DNA from: Bartonella sp. M0283
GTDB taxonomy: Bacteria; Pseudomonadota; Alphaproteobacteria; Rhizobiales; Rhizobiaceae
Direction of reading: 5' to 3'
Length of the DNA: 64,000 nt
NCBI RefSeq assembly: GCF_016100455.1
Contig: NZ_JACFSK010000002.1
Location: 75,321 to 139,320 of the forward strand
The notes under the pieces were generated by a model that had not been told where the DNA came from, searched no databases, and saw only the letters and a program-made list of their open reading frames with translations. The stretch's first letter is position 1. Each line of letters begins with the position of its first letter. A program made the translations under genes and the position numbers. This document shows, in pieces, positions 17,901-62,744 of this stretch.

Positions 17901-18545
17901 AAAACACCAAATTGAAGTTTATATGGTCTATAGATATCGGCTATCCATTTTCGAAAATTGTGACGACCATTGTCTTTTGTCAACCAGACGTTTATTGTTC
18001 CCCTCGGATTATCAATTGATCGAAACCGGATATAATCTATTCGCCCCGTCTTGCCCCGAGCCGATCTTGATCTTCTAACTTTATTTTCTGCCCGTCTTAA
18101 ACCTTGGCCACATGAGCTCATATTACCTCATGTAACAAAGACCTTGCAAAGCTTTTATTACGTCAATCTTTAGCCGATATTCCGATTTATAAACCGGACG
18201 AGGTTAACAAATTTGGCAGCAAAATTATATTTTAAGCCATTTTTTGATCTTGCCATTTTTGCTCGCCGTTGGCTGAATGAAAAGCCCGTCAGACATAAAA
18301 ATCATCAGTGCATAGCGAAAATTATGCAAGACTCCGTTTTCCAACAAAAGTCACCGAAAGTTCGAAGCCGTTTCTTTTCCGGAACACGTTTCTTCAGGCT
18401 CTTTTTCTGAAGCTGCCAGCGCGTCTTTTACCTGAGTTTTTTTAAACCGCGAAAAGCCGTTCATCTCTCTTCTACTTTTACGTAGATGAAAGCGCTTATG
18501 CACAAGTGCACTTATTGTTGGAATAACCGAAAAGCTCAGAGAAAA
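17901..18545. other. Long intergenic region between the PuuA-like gene and tRNA-His
   Basis: About 645 bases with no credible gene on either strand. It should include the promoter of the PuuA-like operon and the terminator of the tRNA. Short dyads are present (TGCACAAGTGCA near 18498) but nothing recognisable. Confidence 0.4.
17955..17983 (-). promoter_or_regulatory. Possible promoter of the PuuA-like operon
   Basis: Read on the minus strand, a consensus TTGACA (17978-17983) is followed after 17 bases by CAATTT (17955-17960). The -35 is perfect but the -10 is poor. It lies about 55-80 bases upstream of the start codon. Confidence 0.3.
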
Positions 18546-18622
18546 TGGTACGGTTGGTGGGAGTCGAACCTACGACCTCTGGTGCCACAAACCAGCGCTC
18601 TAACCAACTGAGCTACAACCGC
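18546..18622 (-). tRNA. tRNA-His (anticodon GTG)
   Basis: A complete cloverleaf on the minus strand: acceptor GCGGTTG paired with CAACCGT, D stem GCTC/GAGC, anticodon stem CTGGT/ACCAG with loop TTGTGGC (anticodon GTG), T arm GTAGG-TTCGACT-CCCAC. CCA is encoded. The first pair is G1-U72, the discriminator is A73, and the base before G1 is T, so the normally universal G-1 is not encoded; this matches the known alphaproteobacterial tRNA-His class with co-adapted histidyl-tRNA synthetase. Confidence 0.95.
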
Positions 18623-18651
18623 ATCGTCAGAATGAAACATTCTGACCGGTG

Positions 18652-18680
18652 ACATACGGAAGATCGAGCAATTTTGCAAG
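18652..18680 (-). promoter_or_regulatory. Probable promoter of tRNA-His
   Basis: On the minus strand CTTGCA (18675-18680) and GTATGT (18652-18657) are separated by 17 bases, close to alphaproteobacterial tRNA promoters (CTTG-type -35). Between it and the tRNA lies a perfect 9-base hairpin, GTCAGAATG and CATTCTGAC (18626-18646), three bases before the mature 5' end. Confidence 0.45.
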
Positions 18681-18871
18681 TGCCTTAGCGCATTTAAACT
18701 CTATTTATTGGCATTTTCATTGGATTTTTATCTTCGACAGACTGCAAAGCCGCTGAAATTTTTATTCCGCCCACGTAATGGAGCTTATAAAATTGACAAT
18801 CAATAGGAGTTAAAACACGCCCAAAAATGCCACTCCTTATCTGACTAAAAAAACGCACAATCAACAGTTTT

Positions 18872-19600
18872 TGAAAACCGGATTTTCTTATTATCGCAAT
18901 GTTATTCAAGAAAACCGCTTCGCACTTTTCAGGCACTGCCTGGACACTTTTGGGGAACCCGAGTTTTTAGTAAACTTGGGTTTATCCCAAAACCGTACTT
19001 TTTACTTGTCGCGGTGCACTTCCTGAAAACCGCTTCGCACTTTTCAGGTACTGCTTGGACACTTTTGGGGAACCCGAGTTTTTAGTAAACTTGGGTTTAT
19101 CCCAAAACCGTACTTTTTACTTGTCGCAGTGCACCTCCCGAAAACCGCTTCGCACTTTTCAGGCACTGCTTGGGTACTTTTGGAGAACCAAGTTTTTAGT
19201 AAACTTGGGTTTATCCCAAAACCGTACTTTTTACTTGTCGCAGTGCACTTTCTGAAAACCGCTTCGCACTTTTCAGGCACTGCTTGGACACTTTCGGGGA
19301 ACCCGAGTTTTTAATAAACTTGGGTTTATCCCAAAACCGTACTTTTTACTTGTCGCAGTGCACTTTCTGAGAACCGCTTCGCACTTTTCAGGCACTGCTT
19401 GGGTACTTTCGGGGAACCAAGTTTTTAGTAAACTTGGGTTTATCCCAAAACCGTACTTTTTACTTGTCGCAGTGCACTTCCTGAAAACCGCTTCGCACTT
19501 TTCAGGCACTGCTTGGACACTTTTGGAGAACTAAGTTTTTAATAAACGCGGTTCTTATCCCAAAACCGTTTCACACTTTTGGGGAACCGCTTGGTGTGCC
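18872..19600. repeat. Tandem array of about 115-bp intergenic repeats
   Basis: Units begin with AAAACCGCTTCGCACTTTTC at 18911, 19026, 19141, 19255, 19370 (one base changed) and 19484, with a decayed partial unit before the first (from about 18872) and a diverged end running to about 19600. Period is 115 or 114 bases. Each unit carries inverted repeats: CCTGAAAA/TTTTCAGG around CGCTTCGC, and CCCGAGTTT or CCAAGTTT paired with AAACTTGGG. Two unit types alternate, giving a 229-base higher-order repeat. The period is not a multiple of three in the 115-base units, so it is not a protein repeat. Two large palindromes per roughly 110-base unit recall rhizobial RIME-type intergenic elements. Confidence 0.92.
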
Positions 19601-19601
19601 C

Positions 19602-20690
19602 CTAATCAGGGATTTTGCGGTTTGCCCATTTATCCAAAGACAGGTCGCGATATTCCCCTATCTTTTTCGCACCATCATTTTTCATGGTTTCGAGCACATT
19701 TTTCAGAATGTGTCTCGCAAGCCCTGCACCCTCATAAACCATCGCACTATAAAGTTCGACAAGATCGGCACCGGCTTTGATTTTTTCCAGCGCTGTTTTT
19801 GCGTCATAAACGCCACCAACCCCGATGATGGGTTTTTGTTGCTGCACTCTCTTGCGCATTTTCGCAAGAATAATCGTCGAGCGTTCAAATAGCGGCTTGC
19901 CGGAAAGCCCGCCCGATTCGCCGCTGAAGCTTTTATTTTCAAGACCTGTTCTGGAAAGTGTCGTATTGGAAACAATAAGCCCGTCAACATCCGAGGCGAG
20001 AAGCTCGGCGGCAACATCATCAAGCCCTTCTTCGGTCAAATCAGGAGCTATCTTTAAAAAGACCGGAACATGAACACCCGTCTTTTGCTTTTCTTCCGCT
20101 CTTGCACCGCTCACCGACAAGAGCAATTCCTTCAAACTGTCACGGGCTTGCAAATTCCGTAAACCCGGTGTGTTGGGTGATGAAATATTGATGGTGAAAA
20201 AGCTTGCAACATCATAAAAACAATGAATGCCGCGCGAATAGTCGAGAATACGATCGTCCGAATCCTTGTTGGCACCGATATTGACCCCGACAATACCCTG
20301 CTTTTTACGCATAGCGAACCGTTTATGGGCAGCTTCATGCCCCTCATTGTTAAACCCCATGCGATTGATGACAGCCTCGTCTTCACGAAGACGAAAGAGA
20401 CGGGGTTGAGGGTTGCCCGCCTGTGGACGCGGCGTGATTGTACCAACTTCGCTAAAGCCGAAGCCCAAGCGCAGTATTTGATCGGGAACTTCGGCATTTT
20501 TATCAAAACCGGCGGCCAAGCCTAAAAAATTCGGAAATTCCAGTCCGGCTATGTCCACCCCCAAACGTGGGTCATGGATTGCCGGCCTCGAACCGAAGCC
20601 CGCTTTCAATGCAAGGATGGAAAGCTTGTGGGCTTTTTCGGGCGACAGGCAGAAAACCAACGGGCGTAATAAAGAACGATAAAGGTTCAT
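19602..20690 (-). CDS. pyrD: Dihydroorotate dehydrogenase (quinone), class 2
   Basis: A 362-residue membrane-associated flavoenzyme of pyrimidine synthesis, oxidising dihydroorotate to orotate with quinone. The class 2 N-terminal helix ([19 protein letters not shown]) is present, then [32 protein letters not shown], the FMN-site [14 protein letters not shown] with the catalytic serine, and the [16 protein letters not shown] phosphate-binding end. The start overlaps the stop of the DUF952 gene by four bases (ATGA), so both belong to one operon. Its stop is immediately beside the 115-bp repeat array, which therefore occupies the place of its terminator. Confidence 0.96.
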
Positions 20691-21034
20691 GGCAATACCT
20701 CGCTGAACTCGAACAGGCCGTTTTCGTCAGCTTCGAAAGGGCTGACACCGACAACAGCTTCAAGCGATAAGTCACCATAAAGATGAGGGAAAAACGCCCC
20801 TCCGCGAGACACTTCATAACGCAGTGCCTCTTCATCAAGTTGATCTTCATCAACGGCTACAAGCAAGAGACCGGTTTGACCTTTAAAATGTTTGTTTGCC
20901 GTTTCTGCCACCTGTTCGGCAGTTGAAAAATGGATGAAACCGTCGGCAATATCGACCGCAGCACCAGAAAAAACACCTGAATCTTCGGCTTTTTTCCATT
21001 CGTCTTTCGACACAATCTTATAAATCAGGGCCAT
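20687..21034 (-). CDS. DUF952 family protein
   Basis: A 115-residue soluble protein of the DUF952 family, recognisable from [22 protein letters not shown], then [20 protein letters not shown] and [13 protein letters not shown]. The fold is related to ADP-ribosyltransferase-like or RES-type small domains according to family descriptions, but no function is established. In many alphaproteobacteria it precedes pyrD, as here, where the two genes overlap by four bases. It may be a housekeeping partner co-regulated with pyrimidine synthesis. No membrane segment or signal peptide is visible. Confidence 0.85.
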
Positions 21035-57253: not shown

Positions 57254-57274
57254 ATTAATCTACCCTTTCAGATA

Positions 57275-57345
57275 GCTCGCCTCTCGTTGGGAAGAGGTGG
57301 CCCGCTGACGTGATTATCCGAAAGGCACTCCCAGCACAAGTAAAA
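57275..57345 (-). promoter_or_regulatory. serC leader RNA element
   Basis: The serC leader, read on the minus strand, has a GC-rich stem-loop with CCTCT/AGAGG arms (57280-57297) flanked by GCGGGCCACC and GGCGAGCT, and an outer dyad GCTG (57332-57335) / CAGC (57304-57307). This resembles the serC motif described by Corbino and colleagues for alphaproteobacterial serC genes, a candidate cis-regulatory RNA with unknown ligand. Recognised from memory; alignment to the family model is needed. Confidence 0.6.
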
Positions 57346-61035: not shown

Positions 61036-62744
61036 TGAGCCACAAAATTTCGCGTGCCGCTTATGCGCAAATGTTCGGGCCGACAAAAGGTGACCATATC
61101 CGCCTTGCCGATACAGACCTTTTCGTAACTGTCGAAGATGACAAGACAACTTATGGCGAGGAAGTCAAATTCGGCGGTGGTAAAGTTATCCGCGATGGTA
61201 TGGGCCAAAGCCAATATTCACGTGAAAAAGGGGCTATGGATACAGTTATCACCAATGCCCTTATTGTCGATTATACCGGCATTTATAAAGCCGATATCGG
61301 TTTGAAAGACGGTCTTATCGAAAAAATCGGTAAAGCTGGCAATCCCGATATTCAACCAAATGTCGATATCATCATTGGCCCTGCAACCGAAATTATTGCA
61401 GCGGAGGGGAAAATTGTAACCGCTGGCGGAATTGATTCACACATTCATTTTATTTGCCCCCAGCAGGTCAACGAAGCACTCTATTCCGGCATTACAACCA
61501 TGTTTGGCGGTGGCACGGGGCCCGCACACGGAACGCTAGCGACCACCTGCACACCGGGCCCTTGGCATTTGGCGCGCATGATACAGGCGGTAGACAGCTT
61601 GCCGATGAATATCGGCCTTGCTGGCAAAGGCAATTCATCTTCTCCTGATGCTTTGATCGAAATGGTCAATGCCGGTGCTTCTTCGCTCAAACTTCATGAA
61701 GATTGGGGGTCGACTCCGGCGGCAATCGACAATTGCTTGAGCGTTGCCGATGATTATGACGTGCAGGTTATGATTCACACCGATACATTGAATGAAGCGG
61801 GGTTTGTCGAAGATACAATCGCTGCATTCAAAGGCCGGACAATCCATGCCTTCCATACAGAAGGTGCCGGCGGTGGTCATGCTCCCGATATTATCCGTGT
61901 TTGCGGGTTTGAAAATGTATTGCCTGCCTCAACCAACCCCACGCGCCCCTATACGAAAAACACCATTGCCGAACATCTTGATATGCTCATGGTTTGCCAT
62001 CACTTGTCGGCAAAAATACCGGAAGATGTTGCTTTTGCCGAAAGTCGTATACGTAAGGAAACAATTGCCGCAGAAGATATCCTGCATGATATTGGTGCCT
62101 TTTCTATTATCGCGTCGGATAGTCAGGCAATGGGACGGGTTGGCGAAGTCATTATCCGCACATGGCAGACTGCCGATAAAATGAAAAAACAGCGTGGTTA
62201 TTTGGGCAACGATAGCGGGTTCAACGATAATGAACGCGTGAAACGCTATATTGCAAAATACACAATCAATCCGGCCATTGCACAAGGAATTGGTCATGTC
62301 ACCGGTTCGATAGAAACCGGTAAACGTGCCGATATTGTCATCTGGTCGCCCGCCTTTTTCGGAGTAAAACCGGAGATGGTTTTGCTTGGCGGGATGATCG
62401 CAGCAGCACCAATGGGTGACCCCAATGCATCGATTGCAACACCACAACCGGTTCACTTCCGGCCAATGTTCGGCGCTCTCGGAAAGGCTGTCAAACACAC
62501 ATCTCTTACCTTTACCAGCAAAGCCGCTATTGATAACGGGCTCGCCGAAAAGCTTGGGCTTGAAAAGGAACTCGTTGCCGTTAAAAACACCCGCACTATT
62601 TCCAAAAAATCCATGAAACTCAATTCTGCAACGCCGCATATCGACGTTGACCCAGAAACTTATGAAGTGCGCGCAGATGGTGAATTATTAACCTGCGAAC
62701 CGGCAAAGATACTTCCGATGGCACAACGCTATTTTCTTTATTGA
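61035..62744 (+). CDS. ureC: Urease alpha (catalytic) subunit
   Basis: A 569-residue nickel amidohydrolase that hydrolyses urea to ammonia and carbamate. The ligands are intact: HIHF near residue 137, the carbamylated lysine Lys219 in [20 protein letters not shown], the [12 protein letters not shown] region, and the flap [12 protein letters not shown] with Cys321 and catalytic His322. These numbers lie two above the Klebsiella enzyme, consistent with the chosen start. ATG at 61035 is preferred to TTG 61032 because it couples to ureB and has GGGGG upstream. Cytosolic; needs UreD, E, F and G for nickel. Enzyme should be active. Confidence 0.98.

Follow-up and report, generated by a model that had tools for sequence, protein, structure and literature searches.

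RIME, the Rhizobium-specific intergenic mosaic elements of Osteras, Stanley and Finan (1995), reportedly have a layout of two palindromes. A second well-known class, the REP/BIME sequences, includes BIME-2 of E. coli, which is linked with gyrase. In Brucella the palindromic intergenic repeats are Bru-RS1 and Bru-RS2, given in the accessible text of PMC10800456 as 103 and 106 bp long (103 bp also in that of PMC3163539), and the available part of PMC3733652 states that CGTC repeats are absent from Bartonellaceae and Brucellaceae. We describe here a tandem array of palindromic units in a Bartonella genome of 2.68 Mb, located within a 64,000-nucleotide stretch of DNA that was analysed as a whole and is referred to as the window. 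We consider it probable that an intergenic hairpin of the RIME/Bru-RS type was amplified head to tail at the 3' end of pyrD in one group of Bartonella that includes bee-gut species, and that this hairpin would act at the 3' end of the transcript.

The array occupies the spacer between pyrD, confirmed as a quinone-dependent dihydroorotate dehydrogenase (NCBIfam NF003645), and tRNA-His; both genes are on the - strand, the array lying directly behind the pyrD stop codon and on the 5' side of the tRNA gene (Table 1). Tandem Repeats Finder (TRF) describes the same span either as 5.8 copies with a period of 115 bp (92% matches, score 1115) or as 2.9 copies with a period of 229 bp (score 1148), whereas the maximum tandem score in 100 dinucleotide shuffles of positions 18500-20000 is 45, and the tandem array that a sequence-only reading had proposed behind pyrD and beside tRNA-His is thus real. 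That reading counted six clean units of two alternating types, with a 229-base dimer as the real repeat. There are indeed six unit starts, at 18910, 19025, 19140, 19254, 19369 and 19483 (spacing 115, 115, 114, 115 and 114 bp), but the order is A A B A B, and the sixth unit is a hybrid (GGACACTTT with GAACTAAG) that continues into a complete canonical hairpin. Because four of the 14 variable columns in units 1-5 fit the AABAB split while two informative columns conflict with it, and because the scores for the two periods are nearly equal, the alternation is borne out only in part and the dimer is plausible as the amplified unit but not established. The motif AAAACCGCTTCGCACTTTT, which had been assigned to every unit, is exact in five of the six, unit 5 reading GAGAACCG. 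Outside the array, a block upstream of tRNA-His (18623-18700) is alike in 11 of 13 related spacers and partly so in the other two; it is perhaps the tRNA gene's own promoter, and a scan of it for the sigma-70 consensus gave no site.

Table 1. Features of the array and its flanking genes (window coordinates)
Feature	Coordinates	Strand	Evidence
Tandem array, six units of 115/114 bp (A A B A B + hybrid sixth)	18910..19569	.	TRF 1115/1148, unit alignment, shuffles
Complete canonical hairpin b, 11 nt after pyrD stop codon	19549..19590	-	R1 57.2 bits, E 3.3e-18
Hairpin a, unit 6	19470..19512	-	R1 38.9 bits
Hairpin a, unit 5	19356..19398	-	R1 32.0 bits
Hairpin a, unit 4	19241..19283	-	R1 40.9 bits
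Hairpin a, unit 3	19127..19169	-	R1 36.3 bits
Hairpin a, unit 2, inner part matched	19023..19047	-	R1 30.2 bits, model positions 8-32
Hairpin a, unit 1, outer arm decayed	18897..18939	-	R1 31.8 bits
Second palindrome of unit 1, made by two successive hairpins b whose halves face each other (CACTTTTGGGG..arm, linker, arm..CCCAAAACCG); also in units 2-5	18945..18995	.	Sequence
pyrD, 362 aa, stop codon 19602-19604	19602..20690	-	ORF; NCBIfam NF003645 502 bits
tRNA-His (GTG)	18546..18622	-	ARAGORN

Read on the pyrD strand, hairpin a of the array has on its 5' side an outer arm GCAGTGC, an inner stem CTGAAAA and a G, followed by the apex UGC-GAA-GCG and a further G, and on its 3' side the inner stem TTTTCAG, a few bulged bases and the outer arm GCACTGC. 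The family to which it belongs has outer arms of 6-8 bp, a 7-bp inner stem (CCGAAAA/TTTTCGG), a 3-bp apical stem closed by GAA, and mostly a bulge of 3-5 nt on the 3' side. Each 115-bp unit contains a complete hairpin of 42-45 nt (a) together with half of each of two further hairpins (b), the halves facing each other: between successive hairpins a come the 3' half of one hairpin b and then the 5' half of its neighbour, and these two halves can pair over the intervening linker. Both of the palindromes that had been ascribed to each unit are therefore present, but the second is formed by facing halves of two hairpins b, and we read the 115-bp unit as approximately two 57-bp element lengths, one of them presumably rearranged. 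Folding of one unit (19027-19141) gives z scores of -3.48 on the + strand and -2.35 on the - strand. A search of the window with R1, a covariance model built from 13 elements of other genera and without window sequence, recovers seven hairpins, and the core hairpin of the dispersed Rhizobiaceae copies (CCGAAAAG...CGGTTTTCGG), which we used as the test of membership in the RIME/Bru-RS type, is present in the window.

The Brucella RNA model BASRCI408 contains the array's hairpin at its positions 357-401, and in an Rfam scan at relaxed threshold four of the six units and the complete hairpin match this one 45-nt part, with the best match at 19547-19591 (41.5 bits). The name of the model raises the question of whether the units encode small RNAs, whole or in part, and besides these five weak matches to Brucella sRNA CI408 there is one to CI27 (21.7 bits); both RNAs are listed as RT-PCR-confirmed in B. 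abortus in the available part of a review (PMC9751625). We find this very unlikely, as the scores fall far below the gathering scores of 398 and 59.8 and the matches cover 45 of 435 and 43 of 167 positions respectively, the CI408 model may simply include a dispersed element, and a scan of 18500-20800, limited to the sigma-70 type, finds no promoter-like site. No named Rfam RNA reaches its gathering score over the array. Elsewhere in the window, 5_ureB_sRNA (61190-61474, - strand, 109.5 bits) and a serC leader (57255-57307, - strand, 61.4 bits) score above theirs.

A search for the hairpin core that allowed one mismatch was positive in 47 of 151 Rhizobiaceae genomes, a set with two Bartonella, and in 39 of 109 genera; there are up to 157 copies, and the reversed control pattern gave none. 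Elements for comparison were drawn from eleven genomes of eight other genera. At least seven of the eight outer-arm positions are paired in 103 of 126 distinct elements at 97 loci, a set unselected for pairing in which some members are adjacent array copies or orthologues and so not independent, and arms swapped between loci reach that level in 14%. Among 13 elements of other genera, preselected for an intact inner stem, at least six of eight paired arm positions and distinct arms, 99.0% of cells are paired, and there are 38 double-sided changes versus 12.6 in shuffles (0/500). The Bartonella copies (43 distinct rows, in an alignment that was fitted to the model) have 96.9% of cells paired and 93 double-sided changes versus 29.6 in shuffles (0/500); each of the six outer pairs and two of the inner pairs show compensatory change. 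The hairpin is thus conserved by compensatory change across loci and genera, and its locus-specific outer arms stay complementary. The sequence-only reading had noted a resemblance to rhizobial RIME, and a likeness to rhizobial intergenic palindromic elements is supported; it had also held a functional element to be unlikely if the unit occurred nowhere else and its palindromes lacked compensatory changes. The 115-bp unit was in fact found in the genome only at this locus, but its inner 42-45-nt hairpin recurs in the genome; because this hairpin occurs elsewhere and the compensatory changes are present, there is by that measure a conserved structured element.

Singles dominate some genomes of the other genera (in G195 only 3 of 56 copies are clustered), and tandem runs of 52-60 bp occur too. 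Dispersed singles begin with TAGAGC or a similar sequence in 67 of 86 cases, and tandem copies in 3 of 12. Using a motif that was written after the copies had been inspected, a second hairpin was found in 51 of the 86 dispersed singles, in 12 of 276 control stretches and in none of the 12 tandem copies examined, which suggests that tandem arrays are built from the first hairpin only; a looser count of inverted repeats separates singles (53 of 86) from control windows (44 of 184) less clearly. By reading, the second hairpin is absent from the window. One composite stretch with two hairpins matches 43 plasmid records, 24 of them from Rhizobium, none over more than 80% of its length.

Within Bartonella, R1 matches 11 of 71 genomes (E 0.01, with stricter filters) and has no match in the other 60. 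Ten of the eleven, with genomes of 2.2-2.9 Mb, contain 5 to 26 matches each and include B. choladocola, B. apihabitans, B. apis PEB0122 and strain M0177, and the eleventh (G034) has one weak match. At pyrD the nearest named relatives, from which the closest records were possibly left out, are Bartonella sp. M0177, B. choladocola, B. apihabitans and B. apis, the last three of which we take to be bee-gut bacteria. The genome containing the array has 18 hairpins at five loci, those at pyrD being intergenic, and 17 of the 18 are clustered, a cluster being two or more hairpins with starts at most 170 bp apart. The tandem arrangement had been regarded as exceptional, but clusters are the usual state in the ten related genomes, where they hold 108 of 120 hairpins. 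Spacing in these genomes is 53-58 bp in 57 of 77 gaps and 113-115 bp in six.

A sample of 464 kb, comprising the window and 20 stretches, contains no other tandem array with a period of at least 20 and AAAACCG or its complement in the consensus (35 rows); three further hairpin clusters exist outside this sample. Several other repeats were noted in the genome. A second hairpin array with 56-58 bp units, interrupted by a run of N, lies at approximately 2225690-2225790 of G000:C1 (L170), and a mosaic of short repeats with periods of 35, 46 and 71 bp, based partly on CCGAAAACCGTNCTT, is found at 1141-1522 of L173 (G000:C1:178200-181500). CRISPR-like arrays with the repeat GTTGTAACAGATTAGAAAATGCGGTCAAGCCGCAAC and a period of about 66 bp lie between about 1819 and 8368 in L125 (G000:C1:270001-290000), and L014 has a similar repeat close to a hairpin element.

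The number of units at pyrD differs among close relatives. The window has six unit starts, B. choladocola (L044) five, B. apis PEB0122 (L047) two, and L043, L045, L046 and L051 one each, B. apihabitans having one; L046 and L051 also carry hairpin b. By reading, spacer L049 (254 nt) holds two diverged copies, and no element is present in L050, L052 and L053 (105 nt each), L082 (140 nt), L054 (144 nt) or L048 (257 nt). A second array, at G000:C1:702118 and, with aligned flanks, at its orthologues in five genomes, varies from two to four hairpins. Units 1-5 of the window are 92.2-96.5% identical and units 2-4 of B. choladocola 98.2-100%, and identity between the two sets is 87.0-92.2%. Because units resemble one another more within a genome than across genomes, we take the pyrD array to have been amplified or homogenised after the species parted. 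Copies would be gained and lost through RecA-dependent unequal exchange or replication slippage, either of which is favoured by long near-identical repeats and hairpins, and the earlier suggestion of expansion by exchange between copies agrees with the unit counts and the identity within genomes.

These observations also suit a neutral minisatellite, in which slippage and exchange have multiplied an old and now functionless hairpin: a range of one to six unit starts at pyrD, two to four hairpins in the second array, greater likeness of units within a genome, and no match in 60 of 71 Bartonella genomes at the threshold given above would all be expected. The hairpins would then persist only through self-copying or correction within the family, whereas compensatory change affects all six outer and two inner pairs, also between loci that share no outer-arm sequence, and the elements are biased in position towards convergent gaps (see below). 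We lean away from this reading while taking it seriously.

Returning to an amplified element that acts in the transcript, the hairpin may be a 3'-end structure by which the mRNA of the preceding gene, here pyrD, is terminated, stabilised against decay or processed, and this step is less certain; it may also keep pyrD read-through off tRNA-His. Among 102 element groups placed with crude ORF calls, 80 could be classified (37 convergent, 33 co-directional and 10 divergent), with 18 inside a called ORF and four lacking a flank; G195 and G096, which both contributed to this count, are of one genus, so some loci may be orthologous. In three genomes pooled, the ratio of convergent to divergent gaps is 18:6 for gaps with elements versus 12:24 for other gaps (Fisher p 0.003), an excess that rests on two of the three genomes (G143 alone gives 3:2). 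The element is on the gene strand in 24 of the 33 co-directional cases (p 0.014) and nearer the upstream stop codon in 20 of the 33 (p 0.30), and the stem pairs give a weak strand signal (see below), which speaks against action in the transcript. On the pyrD strand the hairpin is not followed by a clear U-run; terminator-like sites in 18500-20800 number eight versus 3.6 expected, six of them in the array (four on + and two on -) with short T-rich tails. A role at the transcript 3' end would seem the most likely. The range of unit starts from one to six argues that array length matters little, and extra copies in the array are probably redundant.

The hairpins could instead act in DNA, as cruciforms or an array of protein-binding sites by analogy with BIME-2 and gyrase. 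The narrow spacing of 53-58 bp would be accommodated by such a site, as would stems in which nine inner and outer pairs have 30 G-U to 23 A-C combinations and so no clear strand preference. However, with outer arms free to vary, a sequence-specific protein would have the inner core alone to recognise, and at the third apical pair G-U is confined to one strand, with 40 G-U to no A-C (39 of the 40 are of one pair type and may go back to a small number of lineages, and the search pattern itself dictated the other two apical pairs). We judge a DNA-level site unlikely. Tandem iterons and tRNA genes frequently mark sites of replication, segregation or integration, and the array stands beside tRNA-His; but it lies on the 5' side of that gene, its hairpin recurs at five loci in the genome, and nothing found in this sequence analysis points to replication or segregation, leaving a site of this kind with almost no credibility.

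Further candidates were set aside. A REP mobilised by a RAYT is not indicated, as the Y1 transposase (PF01797) was found in none of 12 genomes, element-rich ones included, in a search whose control was positive in 5 of 14 known genomes. By reading, whole units repeat and there are no unique spacers, which excludes a CRISPR. Positions 19465-19604 have no match in the phage or plasmid collection, and no phage or plasmid origin is suggested. Both strands of the array are touched by ORFs, five in all and 61-80 aa long, but these follow the repeat unit, and a coding function was set aside. The array contains no CcrM-type GANTC sites.

A more speculative idea, which we hold to be improbable, is that the family has its own unrecognised, RAYT-free means of multiplication, such as template switching or rolling-circle copying, that would build head-to-tail arrays of about 56 bp with locus-specific, self-complementary outer arms; it would be active in bee-gut Bartonella, with array length serving as a tunable 3'-end insulator. 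That the arms are locus-specific and yet complementary raises the question of how such palindromes are copied or corrected. Through this locus a local tandem array is linked with an element whose structure is conserved across the family, and the natural series of one to six units at one gene end in close species offers a direct test of RIME/Bru-RS function. The array may also be of use in typing bee-gut Bartonella. Among the titles and abstract openings listed in searches of open-licence PubMed Central papers, none describes such arrays in bee Bartonella, and a description may exist in print.

The array can be compared with four known systems. It resembles REP/BIME sequences in being made of short extragenic palindromes, which are sometimes in arrays, but differs from those with a RAYT, the Y1 transposase being missing from all 12 genomes searched. 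Like an intergenic VNTR minisatellite it is tandem, its units are alike in place and their number at pyrD varies between relatives (a between-species comparison), yet its unit holds a structurally conserved dispersed element. With Bru-RS it shares palindromic intergenic repeats in a related genus, a likeness drawn from description and the Rfam match, although the window units are tandem, 115 bp long and have one complete hairpin each. The likeness to RIME lies in intergenic, palindromic, multi-copy elements of Rhizobiaceae, of which 51 of 86 dispersed copies have the second hairpin by motif, and the difference in tandem units that lack both this hairpin and the TAGAGC ends. Judged by the features common to RIME and Bru-RS, the copies in the genome are intergenic, multi-copy and dispersed (18 copies at five loci), though 17 of the 18 are clustered, and the window units do not have the second palindrome that brings such elements to about 103-108 bp in all. 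Because this palindrome is missing and RIME was set beside the array by description, we do not claim RIME proper; from its sequence we regard the array as a tandem, single-hairpin variant of the RIME/Bru-RS-type element.
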